Source: Thermodesulfovibrio aggregans (lineage in GTDB: Bacteria; Nitrospirota; Thermodesulfovibrionia; Thermodesulfovibrionales; Thermodesulfovibrionaceae). From it: a stretch of DNA of 41,496 bases. The stretch spans positions 253,580 through 295,075 of the forward strand of contig NZ_BCNO01000003.1 in the NCBI RefSeq assembly GCF_001514535.1, in the 5' to 3' direction. Positions 10,523 through 23,435 of the stretch are shown in pieces. The notes beneath the pieces were generated by a model. It had not been told where the DNA came from, ran no database searches, and saw nothing but the letters and a program-made list of their open reading frames with translations. Numbering within the stretch: the stretch's first letter is position 1; each line of letters starts with the position of its first letter. The position numbers were made by a program, and so were the translations under genes.

Positions 10523-11149
10523 TTAGAGAGATTCTATGATAGATATTACTTTTTTGTATATCTTTTCAGCTACTATCTCTGTAGGCTCTGTAGCATCTAA
10601 AACAAAAAATCTTTCCTGACTTCTCTTTGCAAGTTCAAGATAACCGTTTCTAACTTTTTCGTGGAATGAAAAATTTTCTATCTCAAATTTATCTTTTTTA
10701 TTAATCTTTCTGTTTCTTCCAAGCCCAATCTCTACAGGGCAGTCAAGTAACACTGTTAAATCAGGCATGAAATCATTAAAAAGCTCTCTGTTTAAGTTTT
10801 GAATTAAATCAATTGATATACCCCGTGCATATCCTTGATAAACTATTGTTGAATCAGTAAATCTATCGCATATTACAGTAAACCCAACTTCAAGATATGG
10901 CTTTATTTTCTCTTCAATATGCTGAGCCCTGTCTGCAAAATAAAGAAGAAGTTCGCATAAAGGAGTTATTTTAATTTCTGAATTAAGAAGAAGTTCTCTT
11001 ATATGCTTTCCAGCTTCTGTATCTCCTGGTTCATAAGTGTAAACAACATCATATCCCTGTTTTTTTAGTGATTCAAAAAGCAGTTTTCCCTGCGTAGTCT
11101 TTCCAGAACCTTCTATTCCTTCAAAAGTAATAAAAATTCCTTTAGCCAT
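10523..11149 (-). CDS. tmk: Thymidylate kinase
   Basis: The 208 residues phosphorylate dTMP to dTDP. The P-loop FEGIEGSGKTTQG is at 9-21. DRFTDSTIVYQGYARG carries the DR(F/Y/H) catalytic motif, and VLLDCPVEIGLGR leads into the lid region. The start overlaps the stop of the MetE-like gene (ATGGCTAA) and the stop is followed after one base by holB, so the three genes are translationally linked. Confidence 0.95.
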   Translation of the reverse strand: MAKGIFITFEGIEGSGKTTQGKLLFESLKKQGYDVVYTYEPGDTEAGKHIRELLLNSEIKITPLCELLLYFADRAQHIEEKIKPYLEVGFTVICDRFTDSTIVYQGYARGISIDLIQNLNRELFNDFMPDLTVLLDCPVEIGLGRNRKINKKDKFEIENFSFHEKVRNGYLELAKRSQERFFVLDATEPTEIVAEKIYKKVISIIESL

Positions 11150-12134
11150 TTATCATTCTGCTTTTTAACTCTTTAAGAACTCTGCAAATTCTCTCGGAGT
11201 TTGGAATATCAAGAGACCCCATTCCACAGGATGGGGTAAGAAGTGAGTTTTTTCTTATTAAAGGTAAAGTTTTAGATATCTCATCAATTTTTATTAAAGA
11301 CTTTTCAATTATCTCTTCATCACGAAGAGCATTTAAATCATCTGTTGTCGGAACAAATCCCCATGCTATGTAGCCATTTCTATCAAGAAACTCTGCTATT
11401 TCGTCTCTATAGATTTTAAAAAAGTCAAAAAAAGAAAAGGCATCAAAACTTAGAATATCAATGTCAAGAGCAAGCACTCTTTTCCAATCTGTCCTTCCAC
11501 AACAATGAATTCCTGCTTTTGCATTAAGTGATTTAATAAATGAGACGAGTTCCTTAATCAATCTTGTTGCTTCATCCTGTTCAACGGAGATATATGCAGA
11601 AGTACCAACTGCCTGAAGAATTGGCTCATCAAGAAAAATTATTATATCTTCAGCAAAAGTTCTCAAAAACTCTATCTGCCATCTTACTTTTGCCTTAAGA
11701 TGCATAAGACAGAGTTCTCTTAAAGTTTCATCAAAATAAACCAATTTACCATCTTCGTCTTTCAAAGATAAAGTAAAAGTAACCGGTCCTGTAATCTGTC
11801 CTTTAAAAATCTTTAGCCTGTCTTTTATCAACTTCTGCATACCATAAAGCCCAACTGCAAAACTTTCACTCATAGGAGATACCATTTCATCGTGATAGTT
11901 ACTTAACCACTCAACAATAATTTCTTCATCTTTTCTGATATAAACTTTGTCTGAATCAAAGACTACACCTGGCAATCCCTCAGAAAACTGCGGAATCATC
12001 TGTTCATTAAAAGAATATTTAGGCATCTGAGGCCAGAAGGGAATATCAAAATGTTGCAATATAAGTTCACAGGCAGACAAAACCTCAGTATGGGGCATAC
12101 TTCCTATGCCTGTAGTGCTGAATGGTCCGAGCAT
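11142..12134 (-). CDS. Core-MetE-like (cobalamin-independent methionine synthase C-terminal domain family) protein
   Basis: This TIM-barrel protein of 330 residues resembles only the catalytic C-terminal half of MetE. The N-terminus (STTGIGSMPH) is the family's opening motif. The zinc/thiol site can be read as H210-x-C212 (GIHCCGRTDW) and C303 (TPSCGMGS); the third ligand, Glu in MetE, may be D231 here (LSFDAFS). FLDEP is at 168-172. Full MetE is about 750 residues with a folate-binding N-terminal half, which is missing. Known single-domain 'core MetE' enzymes take methyl groups from corrinoid donors rather than folate; applying that here is inference. It starts two bases after the small coiled-coil gene and overlaps tmk. 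Confidence 0.8.
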   Translation of the reverse strand: MLGPFSTTGIGSMPHTEVLSACELILQHFDIPFWPQMPKYSFNEQMIPQFSEGLPGVVFDSDKVYIRKDEEIIVEWLSNYHDEMVSPMSESFAVGLYGMQKLIKDRLKIFKGQITGPVTFTLSLKDEDGKLVYFDETLRELCLMHLKAKVRWQIEFLRTFAEDIIIFLDEPILQAVGTSAYISVEQDEATRLIKELVSFIKSLNAKAGIHCCGRTDWKRVLALDIDILSFDAFSFFDFFKIYRDEIAEFLDRNGYIAWGFVPTTDDLNALRDEEIIEKSLIKIDEISKTLPLIRKNSLLTPSCGMGSLDIPNSERICRVLKELKSRMING

Positions 12135-12136
12135 AA

Positions 12137-12352
12137 TTACTCCATTGAGCTGAGTTTTTTTAATATATCGGGATACTCTTTTTTAAAATCAGGGAAAACC
12201 CTCTTTAAAAACATCTTGATTGCCTTGATTTCAATTTCAAGTTCATTAATTTTTTCTAAATTTTTATTAATGTCGTCAATTTTTTCTGATATTACCTTTA
12301 TTTCAGCTTCTATCAAGGCAATCTTTTCTTTTAAACTCATCAGATCCTTCAT
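12137..12352 (-). CDS. Small coiled-coil protein, unknown function (71 aa)
   Basis: I do not recognise this family. Residues 5-50 form a clear heptad pattern rich in I, L, K and E (EKIALIEAEIKVISEKIDD and onward), which suggests a parallel coiled coil. A short basic/aromatic segment (KRVFPDFKKEYPDILKKL) follows. There is no signal peptide and no cysteine. AAAGGAT precedes the ATG, 11 bases downstream of the bS22-like gene, and its stop lies two bases before the MetE-like gene, so it is almost certainly translated. A partner or scaffold role for its neighbours is speculation. Confidence 0.7.
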   Translation of the reverse strand: MKDLMSLKEKIALIEAEIKVISEKIDDINKNLEKINELEIEIKAIKMFLKRVFPDFKKEYPDILKKLSSME

Positions 12353-12363
12353 AGTTTTATCCT

Positions 12364-12459
12364 TTATTTATTTCTTCTTTGTGCTCTCATTTTTTTACGG
12401 AGCTTTCTGTATTTGTGCTTCTTTATCTTTTTCTTCCTCCACTTAAGAACACTGCCCAC
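12364..12459 (-). CDS. bS22-like / AURKAIP1-COX24-domain ribosomal protein (31 aa)
   Basis: A 31-codon gene begins with GTG at 12459 and reads MGSVLKWRKKK at the N-terminus and LRKKMRAQRRNK at the end. Nineteen of its residues are K, R or H. The pattern MGSV.K.RRK.M.KHKH.KL.K..R.QRR is that of the tiny AURKAIP1/COX24-domain proteins. Actinobacterial members were seen as bS22 on mycobacterial 30S subunits and are related to mitochondrial mS38. An excellent RBS (AAAGGAGG) lies 8 bases before the GTG. It sits 17 bases after the activase stop and is easy to miss because of its size and start codon. Confidence 0.85.
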   Translation of the reverse strand: MGSVLKWRKKKIKKHKYRKLRKKMRAQRRNK

Positions 12460-12476: not shown

Positions 12477-15400
12477 TCAAGTTTTGATTGTCTCTATAAA
12501 GGCTTCAAGCCATAGTTCATTGACAGTAGAGTTTGTGCCATCGTAGGCAAGTGATATCACAGGAATATTATAATCCTTGTGAATGAATCTTAACAAAGCA
12601 GTTACAATAGCTCCTGGCATACATCCAAAAGGCATTGCATTGACAATACCACTTACACCTTTTCTAATTAAATCAACGCTTTTCCCAATACTCAAAATAG
12701 TCTCTCCCTCAAAACTGTCTGGAACATAAGGTGATGCAAACTTAAAAATCTCCTTTATGGAGGGTTCATGTAAAAATTTTAACCTTCCTCTTAAAACTGA
12801 TGAAAATTTCTTTTCTACCCTCCACTGGAAAAATTTATTAATAAGAATTTTTATAATAGCAGATTTGTCCTTTTTTATCAAGGCTTTTCTCAAAGCCATT
12901 TTATTTACATAGTGAATCCACTCTTCAATCGGTGTAAGATAGACCTCTGCACCTAAGGCTTCTAGTCTCTTAATCAAATTCTCATTAGAAAATGAATGAG
13001 AACGGACAAATATTTCTCCCACAATTCCCACAAGAGGCTTTTTATCCCTGTATTTAGGGATGTTTTCAAAATCTCTTCTCATGTTTTTTAATAACAACTC
13101 TATAGAGCCATTTCTATTCTTTAATGTATCGTAAATTTTCAACAGATACTGCTCATAAACTTCTTCAGTTTCACCTTTATTTTTTTCATAGGGTCTTGTC
13201 TGTAAAAGCAATTTTGTAAGCAAGCCATAAGCAACAACTCCCTGCCATGCCCTGAGAGAAAACTCTCCTCCTGCAATGTTTAAATCTTTATAAAATTGAG
13301 CATCCTGCTGGGGTGAATAAACAGGAACACTTTCAAATCCCAATTTCTTAAGCATCATCCTGTGTGAAACATTATACTGACCAAATCTGCACGGACCTGC
13401 ACCTGAAGGCATGAAAAAGGCTGTTCTCTGAGGATTAAAATCTTTTGAAAATACAATCTTCAACATATCACCAAGTGTTACAACATAGGGAAAGCATTCT
13501 CCTCCTGATACATATTTTCTTGCAAGCTCAACTGAGTCTTTGTCAGAAGGGGGCATTACTTCTGCATCAATTCCACAGTAGTTAAAGGCTGCTTTTAAAG
13601 CAAAGGCATGGTCAGACATTCTTGGAATAAATATAGTTCTTTTTGATAAATCTGTATTTGAACTCTTGATTAATAGAGGTATGAACTTTTTAAATCTCTC
13701 TCTTTCTGTTCTATCTTTTACGCTATCTATAAAAGCTTCAAGTCTTGTAACAACTCCTGCATCAGCGCTGTGTTCATCAATCTCAAGAATTAAATAGGGT
13801 CTTTCAGCCATCTCTTCTTTAAAGTAATTTATTATGAATGAGTCAGGTCCGCAGGAAAAGTTGGTAATAAACACAGGATATACTCCATCAAGCTTATGAA
13901 TAAACTTTGAAGCTTTTATAATTCTCTGTCCTGAACGCCAGTAAAGATTACTCCACTCCTCTTTTATGTTTATTCCCTCAATGGGTAACATGTCCATAGG
14001 AATTGGTAACACATTGAGACGGGTAAGTTTTCCTGAAATATCAAGGCTAACTGCCTGATCAAAGGAATTGTATGACCTGCCAAGAATAACAACAGTAGAT
14101 TGCTGCCCAAGTGATTTATCTTTTGCTGTTTCAAGAAGTTTTAACCCTTCCTTTTGCAGTTGCTTAACAAACTCTCTTTGCTTTTGCCGTGCAATTTCTA
14201 TTTTTGAATCAAGGTTTTTTATAGGTGAAACTCCTTTAAAAGCTTGATTCAGTTCCTTTTTGAGATAATCAAATCCTCTTGAAAAATCTATTCTCGGTAT
14301 GAGAAACTTTGCTTCTTTAAAAAGCTTTCTGCTTACATATGGAATTGTCTGCACAAGAGGACATGCAAGACCTTTTTCATACTCATCATGAATATTAAGA
14401 TTTATAAAGCTTGGAAGAAAGATTAAATCAACACCCTTTTCAATCAAATCTGCTACATGTCCATAGGCAACTTTAAGAGGAAAGCATGCCTCAGATAAGA
14501 CCTTCTCAACTCCCTTGTTAATAATCTCCTTGTTTGTTTTATCTGAAACCCTTACATTAAAACCGAGTTCCCACAGAAACGTACTCCAGAATGGAAGTTG
14601 GTCATGAAAGAAAAATATATAAGGAATTCCTATGACAGGAGCTTTTCTGTCTTTGTATGTGCTCTCATACTCTTTATGTGCCTTCCATAGCAGTTCCTCT
14701 CTCAGTTTTACAGGATCTGGAAGTCTTGAAGTGTTGTCCTGTTTTTCGTATCTCTCGCATCTGCCTCCATAAAAGAGCTGAGTTTCCTCACCTTCTATCT
14801 TAACCCTATTTATTTCACAGTAGTTGGGGCATCCTTTGCACTCAAAAGAATAAATACTGTATTGTCTGTCTTTAAGAGAAAATCCTTTGAATTTGCTAAC
14901 TTTTCCATTTTTCATAGAATCCCTTGCAATCAAGGCTGCACCAATTGCACCCATTACCTCATGATGAGGTGGAATAATTAACTCTATTTCGCTGTCAACT
15001 TTAGCTTTTAAAAAATTCTCAAATGCTGCCTGAACTGCCTTATTGAAGGCAACACCACCCTGAAAGAATACTCTTTTACCAATCGGTTTCCCGGCTACAA
15101 CTCTGTTTATATAGTTTTCTACAATGCTGTAACAGAGACCTGCCACAATGTCCTCTTTGCGTGCTCCTTTATGAAGATTTATGACAAGGGAGTTTTCCAT
15201 AAAAACAGTGCATCTCTCACCAAGTCTGCATGGTCTTTTAGATGCAAAGGCAAGACTCTGAAACTCTTCAAGGCTTATACCCAGTTTGTCAGCCTGTTCT
15301 TCAATGAAAGAGCCTGTTCCTGCTGCACAGGCTTTGTTCATCTCAAAATCTATGACTTCACCATTTTTAATCCTTATGTATTTAGAATCCTGACCACCAA

Positions 15401-16631
15401 TTTCAAAAATTGTGTCAATGTTTCTGTCATAATGAACAGCACCTCGTGCATGGGCTGTTATCTCATTCTTTACCACATCGGCACCTACAAAATCAGCAAT
15501 CATGTAGCGACCAGAACCTGTTACACCAACACCTTTTATCCTTATATCAGGGAATTCCATGCCTATCTCACTCAAACCTCTTTTTACTGCATCAATTGGC
15601 TTTCCAGCAGTAGGAAGATATCTTTTTGTGATAAGCTCTCCATTTTCATCTATAAGAACAATATTTGTGCTTACAGAGCCCACATCAATACCAAGATAAG
15701 CCTGCTCTGGTGCAATAGAAATTTTTTCTTTGTATAAATCTTCCTTTTCACTTCCTGAAACAACAGAGTTTGAAAGAGGTGGAAGTCCATATTCTATCTC
15801 TGCCTTTATCGTTCCCAGTTTTTCAATGATTTCATCATTTAAAAACACTTCGCTACTCTGAGCTTTCAGGGCAGCACCAATTGCACCGGTTACCTCAAAA
15901 TGCTCTGGTATGAGTATTTCATCTATGCCCAAAACCTTTTTAAATGCCCTTATCATTCCCTTATTTGCTGCAACACCACCCTGAAAAGAGACTTCTTTCT
16001 GAAGAGCTCTACCTTTAAACATTGTTGCCTTGAAGTTTCTTGCAAGGGCAAAACACAAACCTGCAATTATGTCTTCTACTGGAGTTGCTATCTGCTGAAG
16101 ATGAATCATGTCTGACTTGGCAAATACACTGCATCTGCCTGCAATCTTTGAAGGTCTTTTTGATTTTAAAGCGAGCTCGCTGAACTCTTGTATTGTAAGT
16201 CCAAGTCTTTCTGCCTGTTGCTCAAGAAAAGAGCCTGTTCCTGCTGCGCATATGCTATTAAGGGAAAAATCTCTGATTCTTCCTCCTCTGTCAAGGAAAA
16301 TGAGCTTTGAATCTTCTCCACCAATCTCAATAATTGTTCTTACCTGAGGATAGAAAAATGATGTTGCTGTTGCCTGTGACAAAATCTCATTTACATAAGG
16401 CGCACCAACAGTTTTTGCAATAAATCTTCCTGATACACCTGTAAAACAAAGCTTTATGCTTCCATATCGGGAAAGTATTTCTTTGAGTATTTTTGAAACA
16501 ACCTCAGCGGGTTTTCCTAAATGTTTTAAATAGAGCTTTTCCCGAATTCTGAAATCGTTATCAAGAACTGCTATCTTGGCAGTTTCGCTTCCTACATCAA
16601 TACCAAGATAAAGCTCAGAAGCCATACTCAC
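12477..16631 (-). CDS. Fused acyl-CoA dehydratase activase / HgdB-like protein (1384 aa)
   Basis: Two ASKHA ATPase domains of the BadF/BadG/BcrA/BcrD (HgdC) type come first, at about 5-265 and 310-580. Each has a phosphate-1 motif (YLGIDVGS) and the two cysteines that hold a [4Fe-4S] cluster in HgdC (SICAAGTGSF with GRCSVF; KACAAGTGSF with ERCTVF). A cysteine cluster follows at about 610-640 (CKGCPNYC ... GGRC), then a DUF2229 region (SEACFPLKVAYGHV) and HgdB-like segments (NFSCGPDSF, GGECFPYVVTLGDML, GAGPCRFGQY, MPFGCMPGAIV). Enzymes of this class use ATP to push electrons to very low potential for 2-hydroxyacyl-CoA dehydration or double-cubane-cluster reductions. The true substrate is unknown. 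The start is GTG 16631 or ATG 16625; it overlaps the ubiD stop. Confidence 0.88.
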   Translation of the reverse strand: MSMASELYLGIDVGSETAKIAVLDNDFRIREKLYLKHLGKPAEVVSKILKEILSRYGSIKLCFTGVSGRFIAKTVGAPYVNEILSQATATSFFYPQVRTIIEIGGEDSKLIFLDRGGRIRDFSLNSICAAGTGSFLEQQAERLGLTIQEFSELALKSKRPSKIAGRCSVFAKSDMIHLQQIATPVEDIIAGLCFALARNFKATMFKGRALQKEVSFQGGVAANKGMIRAFKKVLGIDEILIPEHFEVTGAIGAALKAQSSEVFLNDEIIEKLGTIKAEIEYGLPPLSNSVVSGSEKEDLYKEKISIAPEQAYLGIDVGSVSTNIVLIDENGELITKRYLPTAGKPIDAVKRGLSEIGMEFPDIRIKGVGVTGSGRYMIADFVGADVVKNEITAHARGAVHYDRNIDTIFEIGGQDSKYIRIKNGEVIDFEMNKACAAGTGSFIEEQADKLGISLEEFQSLAFASKRPCRLGERCTVFMENSLVINLHKGARKEDIVAGLCYSIVENYINRVVAGKPIGKRVFFQGGVAFNKAVQAAFENFLKAKVDSEIELIIPPHHEVMGAIGAALIARDSMKNGKVSKFKGFSLKDRQYSIYSFECKGCPNYCEINRVKIEGEETQLFYGGRCERYEKQDNTSRLPDPVKLREELLWKAHKEYESTYKDRKAPVIGIPYIFFFHDQLPFWSTFLWELGFNVRVSDKTNKEIINKGVEKVLSEACFPLKVAYGHVADLIEKGVDLIFLPSFINLNIHDEYEKGLACPLVQTIPYVSRKLFKEAKFLIPRIDFSRGFDYLKKELNQAFKGVSPIKNLDSKIEIARQKQREFVKQLQKEGLKLLETAKDKSLGQQSTVVILGRSYNSFDQAVSLDISGKLTRLNVLPIPMDMLPIEGINIKEEWSNLYWRSGQRIIKASKFIHKLDGVYPVFITNFSCGPDSFIINYFKEEMAERPYLILEIDEHSADAGVVTRLEAFIDSVKDRTERERFKKFIPLLIKSSNTDLSKRTIFIPRMSDHAFALKAAFNYCGIDAEVMPPSDKDSVELARKYVSGGECFPYVVTLGDMLKIVFSKDFNPQRTAFFMPSGAGPCRFGQYNVSHRMMLKKLGFESVPVYSPQQDAQFYKDLNIAGGEFSLRAWQGVVAYGLLTKLLLQTRPYEKNKGETEEVYEQYLLKIYDTLKNRNGSIELLLKNMRRDFENIPKYRDKKPLVGIVGEIFVRSHSFSNENLIKRLEALGAEVYLTPIEEWIHYVNKMALRKALIKKDKSAIIKILINKFFQWRVEKKFSSVLRGRLKFLHEPSIKEIFKFASPYVPDSFEGETILSIGKSVDLIRKGVSGIVNAMPFGCMPGAIVTALLRFIHKDYNIPVISLAYDGTNSTVNELWLEAFIETIKT

Positions 16632-20395: not shown

Positions 20396-20403
20396 ATTAA
20401 TTA

Positions 20404-20495
20404 ATCCCTGGGGGAGGTCAGCAGGACCTGAGAGTTCCCGATAAGGGAAGACCCCTTGAACCTGATCCGGGTAATGCCGGCGTAGGGAAAGGGAG
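20404..20495 (+). promoter_or_regulatory. TPP riboswitch (THI element)
   Basis: The region holds the conserved thi-box parts in order: GGGGGAGGTC, then GACCTGAGA (20425-20433, pyrimidine-sensor side), ACCCCTTGAACCTGATC and GGGTAATGCCGGCGTAGGGAA (the last two in the J2-4/P4-P5 pyrophosphate-sensor side). The P1 stem pairs CCCT near 20405-20408 with AGGG near 20483-20486. Thiamine pyrophosphate binding switches off the downstream thiamine biosynthesis genes. The terminator that follows shows that control is at the level of transcription. Confidence 0.96.
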
Positions 20496-20511
20496 AGACT
20501 GAGCTAAAACC

Positions 20512-20755: not shown

Positions 20756-21529
20756 ATGAATGATCCATTAATTATCAGAGGAATTGAGTTTAAGTCTAGG
20801 CTATGGGTTGGAACAGGTAAATATAAAAGTTTTGAGGAAACTGCCCGTGCAATTGAAGCCTCTGGAACAGATGTAGTAACAGTTGCAGTAAGAAGAGTAA
20901 ATATCATTGACCGCTCAAAGGAAAATCTTCTTGATTATATTGATCCCAAGAAATACAAAATTCTTCCAAATACAGCAGGCTGTTACACAGTTGAAGATGC
21001 CCTGAGATACGCAAGACTGGCAAGAGAAGCAGGTGTTTCAGATATGGTAAAGCTTGAAGTAATAGGCGATGAAAAAACCCTTTTCCCTGATGTATGTGGA
21101 CTTCTTAAAGCAACAGAAATTCTTGCAAAAGAAGGCTTTATTGTTTTTCCATATACGAACGACGACCCTGTAACAGCAAAAAGACTTGTTGATGCCGGTG
21201 CTGCTGCAGTGATGCCTCTTGGTGCACCAATTGGCTCAGGACTTGGAATAAGAAATCCCTACAACATAAAGATAATTCTTGAAACAGTTAATGTCCCTGT
21301 TATTGTTGATGCAGGAGTGGGTACAGCCTCTGATGTATCACAGGCAATGGAGCTTGGCTGTGATGCTGTTCTTGTAAATACTGCAATAGCAGGTGCAAAA
21401 GACCCAATAATGATGGCTCAGGCACTTAAGCATGCCTGTATAGCAGGAAGGCTTGCCTATAAGGCTGGAAGAATTCCTAAGAAACTTTATGCTTCCGCAA
21501 GTTCACCCATTGAAGGAATGCTTACATGA
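20756..21529 (+). CDS. thiG: Thiazole synthase ThiG
   Basis: The 257-residue TIM barrel forms the thiazole phosphate from deoxyxylulose 5-phosphate, ThiS thiocarboxylate and an imine of glycine. Key segments are LWVGTGKY at the start, [22 protein letters not shown], the Schiff-base lysine in [22 protein letters not shown] and [18 protein letters not shown]. The length is normal. It overlaps thiE by ATGA. No thiH or thiO, which would supply the imine, is present in the operon. Confidence 0.96.
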
Positions 21530-22131
21530 AGGTCTATCTCATAGGTGACAGAAAGCTTTTTCCCGATGAAAAAGCTTTTTTAGAGGCAGTTGAGACTGCT
21601 CTTAAGGCAGGAGTTAAGGCTTTTCAGTTAAGGGAAAAGGATTTGACTGTAAGGGAACTCTACTTTCTTGCAAAAAAATTGCGTGAGATAACAAAAAGAA
21701 ATGATGCACTGCTTTTCATAAATGACAGAGTTGACATAGCTTTGGCTGTTGATGCTGATGGAGTTCATCTTCCCAGTAGCGGTTTTCCCGCTCATGTGGT
21801 TAGAAAGGTCTGGAAAGATAGATTTATCATAGGTGTATCAACCCATTCACTTGATGAGGCAAGGGAGGCTTCAGAATGGGCTGATTTTATAACCTTCAGC
21901 CCTGTTTTCCATACTCCATCAAAGGGAAAACCACAGGGAATAGAGAAATTAAAAGAAGTCAAGGAATCTGTTAAATGCAAGGTCTTTGCTCTCGGAGGGA
22001 TTAAGCTTGAAAATGTCAATGAAGTATTGCCCTACTGTGACGGAGTTGCCATGGTAAGTGGTATTTTAGCTCAAAGAGACATTGAAGGAGTGGTGAAAAA
22101 ATTCAATGAAATTTTAGGAGAAAAGCCATGA
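21526..22131 (+). CDS. thiE: Thiamine-phosphate synthase ThiE
   Basis: This enzyme of 201 residues joins the pyrimidine diphosphate and thiazole phosphate to give thiamine phosphate. Motifs are [48 protein letters not shown] and FALGGI. The TenI paralogue is the main alternative, but the phosphate- and pyrimidine-binding residues and the operon context favour ThiE. Start and stop both overlap neighbours by four bases. Confidence 0.9.
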
Positions 22132-23435
22132 CAAGAGTTGAATTAGCAAAAAAGGGAATAATTACAGATGAGGTAAAAGAGGTCGCAAAAGAAGAAGGTA
22201 TCTCACCTGAAATACTTTCTCAAAATATAGCAGAAGGAAAGGCTGTTATTACGAGGAATATTCTTCACAATATAAAGCCTCTTGGAATAGGAAAGGGTCT
22301 CAGGACAAAGATAAATGCCAATATTGGAACATCCAAAGACAAAACAGACCTTAATGAAGAGCTTGAAAAGCTTGATATAGCTGTCAAATACGGCACAGAT
22401 GCTGTAATGGACCTTTCAACAGGAGGACCTCTTACAGAGATGAGAAGGGCAATTATAAAACATTCTCCCGTAAGTATCGGGACCGTTCCCATTTATGAGG
22501 TTGCTGTAAGGGCAATTGAAAAGTATGGAAGCATTGTGAAGATGACCGCTGATGATATATTTGATGTAATAGAGGAGCATGCAAAGGATGGAGTTGATTT
22601 TGTCACAGTTCACTGTGGTGTTACCATGAAGATTGTTGAGATGCTTAAATCTGGTGAGAGAGTTTTACCAATTGTAAGCAGAGGAGGTTCAATTCTTGCA
22701 GACTGGATATGCTATAATGGCAAAGAAAATCCTCTTTATGAGTATTTTGATAGACTTCTTGCGATTGCAAAAAAGTATGACCTCACCCTCAGTCTTGGAG
22801 ACGGGTTAAGACCTGGCTGTCTTATGGATGCAACAGACAAATATCAGTTGCTTGAACTCATAACCATTGGCAAACTAAAGGACATTGCTGTATCAGAGGG
22901 TGTTCAATGCATAATTGAAGGACCTGGGCATCTTCCCCTAAATCATGTGGAGACAAACATTAAACTACAGAAAAGCATATGCAAGGAAGCTCCTTTTTAT
23001 GTTCTCGGTCCTCTTGTAACAGATTGTGCTATGGGTTATGACCATATCGCTGCTGCAATAGGTGGTGCACTGGCAGGTATGTACGGAGCAGATTTTCTAT
23101 GCTATGTAACACCATCAGAACATATAAGACTTCCAGATAAAGAAGATGTAAAGGAAGGTGTAATTGCTTCAAAGATTGCTGCCCATGCAGCAGACCTTGC
23201 AAAGGGGTTACCGCAGGCATGGCAGAGAGACAACAAAATGGCAGAAGCAAGAAGAAACTTTGACTGGCAGAGTCAGATTGCCCTATCATTTGACCCTGAA
23301 AAGGTGAGATCTATGCGTTCTGAAAGACCTCCTGTTGAAGATGAGAGAGTATGTAGCATGTGCGGGGAATTCTGCGCAATAAAGATCTCAAGAGAGGCAA
23401 TTGAGATAGATGTCAGTTTAAACAGGAATGCCTGA
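22128..23435 (+). CDS. thiC: Phosphomethylpyrimidine synthase ThiC (short form)
   Basis: This radical-SAM enzyme of 435 residues turns aminoimidazole ribotide into hydroxymethylpyrimidine phosphate. It is the short form that lacks the N-terminal domain of the 600-plus-residue proteobacterial type. Recognisable segments are INANIGTSKD, DAVMDLSTGG, PIYEVAVRAIEKYG, FVTVHCGV, SLGDGLRPGC, IEGPGHLPLNHVE and ITPSEH-like VTPSEHIRLP. The C-terminal cluster motif reads CSMCGEFC, that is CX2CX3C, one residue tighter than the common CX2CX4C. It is the last gene before the terminator at 23521. Confidence 0.95.
   Translation: MTRVELAKKGIITDEVKEVAKEEGISPEILSQNIAEGKAVITRNILHNIKPLGIGKGLRTKINANIGTSKDKTDLNEELEKLDIAVKYGTDAVMDLSTGGPLTEMRRAIIKHSPVSIGTVPIYEVAVRAIEKYGSIVKMTADDIFDVIEEHAKDGVDFVTVHCGVTMKIVEMLKSGERVLPIVSRGGSILADWICYNGKENPLYEYFDRLLAIAKKYDLTLSLGDGLRPGCLMDATDKYQLLELITIGKLKDIAVSEGVQCIIEGPGHLPLNHVETNIKLQKSICKEAPFYVLGPLVTDCAMGYDHIAAAIGGALAGMYGADFLCYVTPSEHIRLPDKEDVKEGVIASKIAAHAADLAKGLPQAWQRDNKMAEARRNFDWQSQIALSFDPEKVRSMRSERPPVEDERVCSMCGEFCAIKISREAIEIDVSLNRNA

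Follow-up and report, generated by a model that had tools for sequence, protein, structure and literature searches.

Introduction

MesB (Dehalococcoides mccartyi cbdbA481; Deobald 2020, Price 2021) is a core methionine synthase composed of one catalytic domain of about 340 amino acids, and is associated with AcsCD. The zinc ligands of the Dehalococcoides enzyme are given as His215, Cys217, Asp236 and Cys312 in the available text of PMC7005905. An Asp at the position of MetE Glu665 is compatible with activity according to the accessible part of Price et al. (PMC7857596), and in the parts available the MesB descriptions report that the region around Trp69, which occupies the Glu484 position, is variable. 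An HxxG motif, conserved in Dehalococcoidia, was proposed for B12 binding in MesB by Deobald et al. in the excerpt available. The published phmmer thresholds for MesB against DET0516 are 130 or 173 bits.

MesA of methanogens, together with split MetE, and MesC of archaea are further core enzymes, the latter in organisms with CoFeSP. MesD is a single-domain protein with MesX (DUF1852) encoded next to it, and tandem-repeat MetE is folate-dependent. A related single-domain protein of M. tuberculosis, Rv3015c, has a function termed unclear in the available text of PMC4428469.

Here a protein designated P0001, encoded in the window (the whole 41,496-nucleotide stretch of Thermodesulfovibrio aggregans DNA that was analysed), is compared with these enzymes. 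Among the papers available for searching, none was found that links methionine synthase with the Wood-Ljungdahl pathway in Thermodesulfovibrio, or methionine synthase with a corrinoid in Nitrospirota.

The gene and its neighborhood

P0001 is encoded at 11142-12134 on the minus strand and is a single domain of 330 amino acids. The host genome is 2.0 Mb in three contigs. A preliminary description of this DNA gave the same span exactly and left the strand unstated; the plus strand of the interval has stops throughout. Orthologs in four named Thermodesulfovibrio records are syntenic and 57-73% identical, which indicates that the ORF is a real gene. The ORF call, the orthologs and the predicted fold mark it as a core methionine synthase-like coding sequence. 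The preliminary description held that only the catalytic half of MetE is present, and P0001 does lack the folate-binding N-terminal half.

The four records share the gene order UbiD, a 1384-amino-acid activase, the P0001 gene, tmk and holB, with names taken from a domain scan of the window neighbors, followed by genes that we take to be ricT, metG and radC. The string homolog-tmk-holB-ricT-metG is repeated throughout the window's class, and tmk-holB-ricT strings presumably occur also in bacteria without a P0001-type gene. A functional meaning of the tmk-holB linkage was dropped for these two reasons. The preliminary description had called this linkage uninformative, which is correct within the window's class and does not extend to other phyla, where the neighbors are informative. 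Neighbors of homologs in Nitrospirota families f18, f20 and others (aminotransferase class IV, MgsA, Nramp, TonB, NrpR, LptD) have no shared theme.

Several other features lie nearby. A probable coiled-coil ORF of 71 amino acids (12137-12352, minus strand) ends 2 nt before the P0001 ORF, has counterparts directly upstream of the homolog in all five other Thermodesulfovibrio loci checked, and gave no match above the cut-off in a Pfam scan. A basic ORF of 31 amino acids with a GTG start (12364-12459, minus strand) matches COX24_C (PF08213) at 41 bits (cut-off 23). It is near-identical in eight of the nine Thermodesulfovibrio sequences searched, was not seen in L111, and is perhaps a small ribosomal protein like mitochondrial mS38. 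The 1384-amino-acid protein (12477-16631, minus strand) has two BadF-type ATPase domains and DUF2229, as in activases of acyl-CoA dehydratase type, and its gene keeps its place upstream of the P0001 ORF in each of the four named Thermodesulfovibrio records. A TPP riboswitch (20400-20506, plus strand; 78.1 bits) precedes the genes at 20756-23435.

Fold and recognition by sequence libraries

P0001 is poorly recognized by sequence libraries. A Pfam search at E 0.01 finds no match for it, and its orthologs in G030, G022 and G101 score 21-27 bits with PF01717 (Meth_synt_2), over the cut-off of 21 bits. The sole NCBIfam match of P0001 is the methionine synthase model NF002119, at 35.9 bits with a cut-off of 258, and 12 of 18 family members match this model below threshold at E ≤0.01. 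Neither P0001 nor the family profile A1 gave more than chance or repeat-protein matches when solved structures were searched by sequence. The hhalign probability for the P0001 profile against MetE is only 17% (E 0.0015), and the sequence similarity is weak.

The AlphaFold model of P0001, built from a 13-sequence input, has a pLDDT of 88.3 and a pTM of 0.90. MetE structures are the top Foldseek matches of this model, above uroporphyrinogen decarboxylase (UROD). In VIA-align the catalytic half of T. maritima MetE (residues 400-731) gives Z 24.2 with an rmsd of 3.5 over 285 residues, and single-domain MesD (3RPD) gives Z 23.7. The highest Z for a UROD structure is 20.0, and that for the M. mazei methyltransferase 4ay7 is 19.8. 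This ranking of the predicted model indicates that P0001 is a MetE-type catalytic domain; a fold match is by itself no proof of function. That P0001 is instead a UROD-like protein without zinc chemistry, the alternative named in the preliminary description, is a negligible prospect: UROD folds do match with Z up to 20.0, but MetE and MesD rank above them in VIA-align, as MetE does in Foldseek, and P0001 has an H-x-C...C site with four invariant zinc ligands.

Active site residues

Residues were counted in 64 non-redundant rows of the anaerobe type (58 Nitrospirota, P0001, four anaerobic Actinomycetota and one Desulfosarcina) and in a separate set of seven aerobic Actinomycetota rows, 71 rows in all. 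The partial homolog L010, rows below 100 bits and duplicates were left out before the counts and the tree. MetE residue numbers are those that we take to belong to the local motifs.

Four residues of P0001, all encoded on the minus strand, are predicted zinc ligands. His210 (11505-11507; E. coli MetE His641, to which it aligns), Cys212 (11499-11501; MetE Cys643) and Cys303 (11226-11228; MetE Cys726, MesB Cys312) are invariant in all 64 rows and in the seven aerobic ones. Asp231 (11442-11444; MesB Asp236) is invariant in the 64 rows, which argues against a chance change, and is Pro in all seven aerobic rows. The profile alignment places Asp231 on Glu665 of E. coli MetE ('DILSFDA' versus 'DVISIEA'), and the spacing from Cys212 to position 231 is 19 residues in 71 of 71 rows, the second residue being Pro in the aerobic seven. 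The preliminary description had noted the H-x-C and the late Cys as kept and the Glu ligand as seemingly replaced by D231, and the alignment agrees on both points. The zinc site that it called altered is not unusual: the characterized MesB uses Asp236 in the available texts of PMC7005905 and PMC7857596, and the Asp-for-Glu substitution was therefore already known.

Two further residues are predicted to contact homocysteine. Ser12 (12099-12101, minus strand) would contact the carboxylate as the counterpart of MetE Ser433, as the mapping of the TTxIGS motif suggests, and it is conserved in every row but the Desulfosarcina plasmid copy. Asp169 of DEP (11628-11630, minus strand), aligned to MetE Asp599, is invariant and would contact the amino group. 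Gln36 (12027-12029, minus strand) belongs to a WPQ triplet that is invariant in 64 of 64 rows and is the putative equivalent of MetE Glu484, on a by-eye alignment (DIPFWPQ versus MetE DVLVHGE) made without structural superposition. In 59 of the 71 rows Ser12 and Gln36 are 24 residues apart, versus 51 for the MetE pair. Gln113 in KGQxTGP (11796-11798, minus strand) is at the His position of HxxG, and motif and spacing suggest that it corresponds to MesB His122. Residue 113 is His in 35 of the 58 Nitrospirota rows, Gln in 21, as in P0001, and Ala in two.

Comparison with known core methionine synthases

P0001 and MesB both consist of one catalytic domain with the same H, C, D and C ligands and the same 19-residue spacing (MesB Cys217-Asp236, P0001 C212-D231), and the association of MesB with AcsCD is common to the P0001 family. 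HxxG is found in part of the P0001 family only. Where MesB has its variable region around Trp69, the P0001 family has an invariant WPQ at 34-36, and the short Ser12-Gln36 distance is a hint of a separate family. The P0001 family ranges over Nitrospirota and anaerobic Actinomycetota, and is set beside MesB by description only.

The other types differ more. MesA and MesC resemble P0001 in having Gln where the counterpart of Glu484 is inferred to be. P0001 is set apart from MesA and split MetE by its Asp ligand in place of Glu, by an NF002119 score well below that model's cut-off, and by a host that is no methanogen. MesC has mostly His for Cys643, whereas Cys212 is present in every anaerobe-type row. 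The zinc ligand of MesD is Glu rather than Asp, and MesX was not among the four P0001 neighbors scanned. Tandem-repeat MetE shares the catalytic-half fold and the zinc-site geometry but has the N-terminal folate half and a Glu ligand. Actinobacterial single-domain MetE homologs of the type that we take to include Rv3015c have a homologous domain; the aerobic ones compared, which do not include Rv3015c itself, have the Pro described above.

Distribution of the family, MetH, MetE and CoFeSP

The P0001 family and MetH largely exclude one another. Among 148 Nitrospirota genomes that are at least 90% complete, 71 have the family, as called with the A1 profile (which includes the distant aerobic rows), and 78 have S-methyl_trans, the MetH homocysteine domain. 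The family alone occurs in 68 genomes, S-methyl_trans alone in 75, both in three and neither in two (G146 and G152); this exclusion is strongly clumped by descent, and the genome counts are not counts of independent events. Among the three genomes that carry both, the MetH of G046 is full-length, in an open frame of 1231 amino acids, and the frames of G122 and G129 are only about 350 amino acids. PF01717 is found in 12 of the 148 genomes and is a full MetE in seven. Six of the 68 family-only genomes have a full MetE, and the family is the sole methionine synthase found in the other 62.

CdhD (PF03599) is present in 75 of the 148 genomes: in 70 of the 71 with the family, G133 (99% complete) being the sole exception, and in five of the other 77. 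CdhD and MetH occur together in three f19 genomes that have no family member, which makes the absence of MetH the better predictor. One clear and recent swap is seen between congeneric genomes, with the family and CdhD but not MetH in G092, and MetH without either in G158.

The 41 genomes nearest to the window's agree with this pattern. The family, called with the same profile, is in 38 of the 41, including all 36 of the good ones, CdhD is in 38 and MTHFR in 40, and the MetH homocysteine domain is in none. Full MetE is in seven, all Thermodesulfovibrio and the window's genome among them. That genome has AcsD, AcsC, AcsB and a separate full MetE of 743 amino acids, and lacks MetH; the preliminary description had pointed to metE, metH and corrinoid proteins as the genes of interest. 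A profile search of 1.65 Mb of its 2.0 Mb found no second family member, with MetE scoring 8.4 bits, and a scan of about 1.65 of the 2.0 Mb, part of it N, with a CODH motif found no match. The presence of MetE means that methionine could be made in this organism without P0001.

The metE riboswitch

All seven Thermodesulfovibrio metE loci have a cobalamin riboswitch, at 76-88 bits (gathering score 31.5). It lies 31 bp before the metE ORF in six of them, and the start is called differently in the seventh. The gene after metE in the window's genome encodes the class III, B12-independent ribonucleotide reductase NrdD, which bears an intein; the intein-type interruption is seen in NrdD at L082 2415-6635, directly after the riboswitch-controlled metE. 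Riboswitches of this kind generally shut off B12-independent isozymes in the presence of cobalamin. A B12-dependent methionine synthase is thus to be expected in these organisms, and with MetH absent P0001 is the candidate for it, as far as genome content can suggest.

Thermodesulfovibrio strain TK110 was isolated with vitamins and cysteine and without yeast extract, according to the available text of PMC12501866, which indicates that the genus can make methionine. Strain N1 is reported to lack CODH/ACS in the accessible part of PMC5165239, and AcsC and AcsD matches are present in G008, taken to be this strain. One may speculate that retention of AcsCD without the full pathway fits a role in methionine synthesis.

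Homologs outside the Nitrospirota

Three anaerobic Actinomycetota loci (L006, L007 and L008) have the cluster acsC-FAD oxidoreductase-hdrA-metV-metF-hdrC-hdrB-homolog, in three of three such clusters, and in L006 and L007 genes of the CbiA-type ATPase and NuoE types come after the homolog. In a fourth, L005, the homolog is preceded by the homocysteine-synthesis gene HcyBio. HcyBio was found in none of the 41 nearest relatives of the window's genome, and its linkage in L005 is therefore not transferable to Nitrospirota. No MetH domain was found in the five anaerobic Actinomycetota genomes (L005-L008 and L010), for which completeness is not given. Among Nitrospirota, G129 has the homolog on the same contig as a Pterin_bind gene (AcsE-like), acsD and acsC.

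The homologs of aerobic Actinomycetota are distinct. The seven rows are 25-29% identical to P0001, form a separate clade in the tree and keep H, C and C, and the locus scanned has the gene between iscS-mnmA and ligA. MetH is in four of the six genomes with such homologs, whose completeness is not given. These proteins probably have another role. The copy at L013 5241-6320 and its relatives are conserved, yet the Asp/Glu ligand is lost. The homolog in L014, a record titled as a Bifidobacterium breve MAG, is near-identical to those of Acidimicrobiia-type MAGs, which suggests that the record is mislabeled.

A search of viral contigs found no P0001 relatives, and a search of plasmids found only Desulfosarcina ovata and Tsukamurella homologs. 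The D. ovata plasmid copy (L065 7983-9011) is annotated 'hypothetical protein' and is clustered with norR, hcp and an A-type flavoprotein, an NO/hydroxylamine cluster. It keeps H, C, D and C and has Val at Ser12.

Discussion

To judge from sequence, predicted fold and genome comparisons, P0001 is probably a corrinoid-dependent, folate-independent core methionine synthase whose methyl donor is most likely CoFeSP. The preliminary description had suggested a core MetE that may take its methyl group from a corrinoid protein, and the fold, the ligands, the exclusion with MetH, the co-occurrence with CoFeSP, the Actinomycetota operons and the metE riboswitch all speak for that suggestion. In the proposed mechanism, zinc held by His210, Cys212, Asp231 and Cys303 would bind homocysteine as the thiolate, as ligands and fold suggest. 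The thiolate would accept the methyl group of a methylated corrinoid protein, most likely CoFeSP (AcsCD), which would be charged from methyl-tetrahydrofolate made by MetF; co-occurrence and operons point to both steps. An enzyme of this type would replace MetH in the window's lineage. In those Thermodesulfovibrio that carry MetE, B12 would silence metE via the riboswitch and P0001 would be the main route. What is new is the comparative case for this function and not the Asp ligand.

P0001 could, compatibly with this function, be an unlabeled member of the published MesB family. This is quite possible if doubtful: the shared Asp ligand and spacing, the HxxG in 35 of 58 Nitrospirota rows and the linkage to AcsCD are what such membership would predict, but the invariant WPQ, with Gln36 only 24 residues past Ser12, does not resemble the Trp69 variable region, and the MesB descriptions, in the parts available, name no Nitrospirota.

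It is unlikely that P0001 is a core methionine synthase with a donor other than CoFeSP, such as free methylcobalamin or another corrinoid protein. CdhD, found in all but one of the 71 family genomes, and the Actinomycetota operons with acsC and metVF argue against it. G133, with the family and no CdhD, would fit such a donor, as would the use of free methylcobalamin in vitro by the characterized MesB (available text of PMC7005905) and the tandem copies of the homolog in at least one genome, G073 of family f20, which could serve different donors.

A zinc thiol methyltransferase with another acceptor, of the CoM type or an unknown thiol, is quite improbable. One of the 18 members matches a methylcobalamin:CoM methyltransferase model (E 0.0079), 4ay7 matches the fold at Z 19.8, and the aerobic homologs, with Pro at D231, the mnmA-ligA locus and MetH in four of six genomes, make it probable that some members of the wider family play other roles. 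The mutual exclusion with MetH, the retention of the Ser12 and Asp169 contacts, the HcyBio gene adjoining the homolog in L005 and a MetE fold clearly ahead favor homocysteine as the acceptor.

The function proposed for P0001, a corrinoid-dependent core methionine synthase, is ordinary enzyme chemistry in a poorly recognized family, and the indirect evidence for this role, on which annotation is now silent, is good. The family may also be a fifth family of core methionine synthases, a broader proposal to which we give slightly less than an even chance. Such a family would be defined by an H-C-D-C site and an invariant WPQ loop, would have taken the place of MetH in anaerobes of the Nitrospirota and of the deep Actinomycetota, and would take its methyl group directly from the Wood-Ljungdahl corrinoid protein, with the metE-nrdD unit of Thermodesulfovibrio as a riboswitch-controlled, B12-independent backup. 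Thermodesulfovibrio species with MetE and others without it, together with a metE riboswitch that indicates which enzyme is intended for use in the presence of B12, are a genetic test bed, and annotation pipelines could, if the function is as proposed, name a gene that is now missed. The same function would fill the methionine-synthase gap in the 62 of 148 Nitrospirota genomes in which no MetH domain and no full MetE were found, and would tie methionine synthesis to CoFeSP in two phyla. The fifth-family reading, if true, would give a reason for CoFeSP to persist in lineages said to lack the complete pathway.
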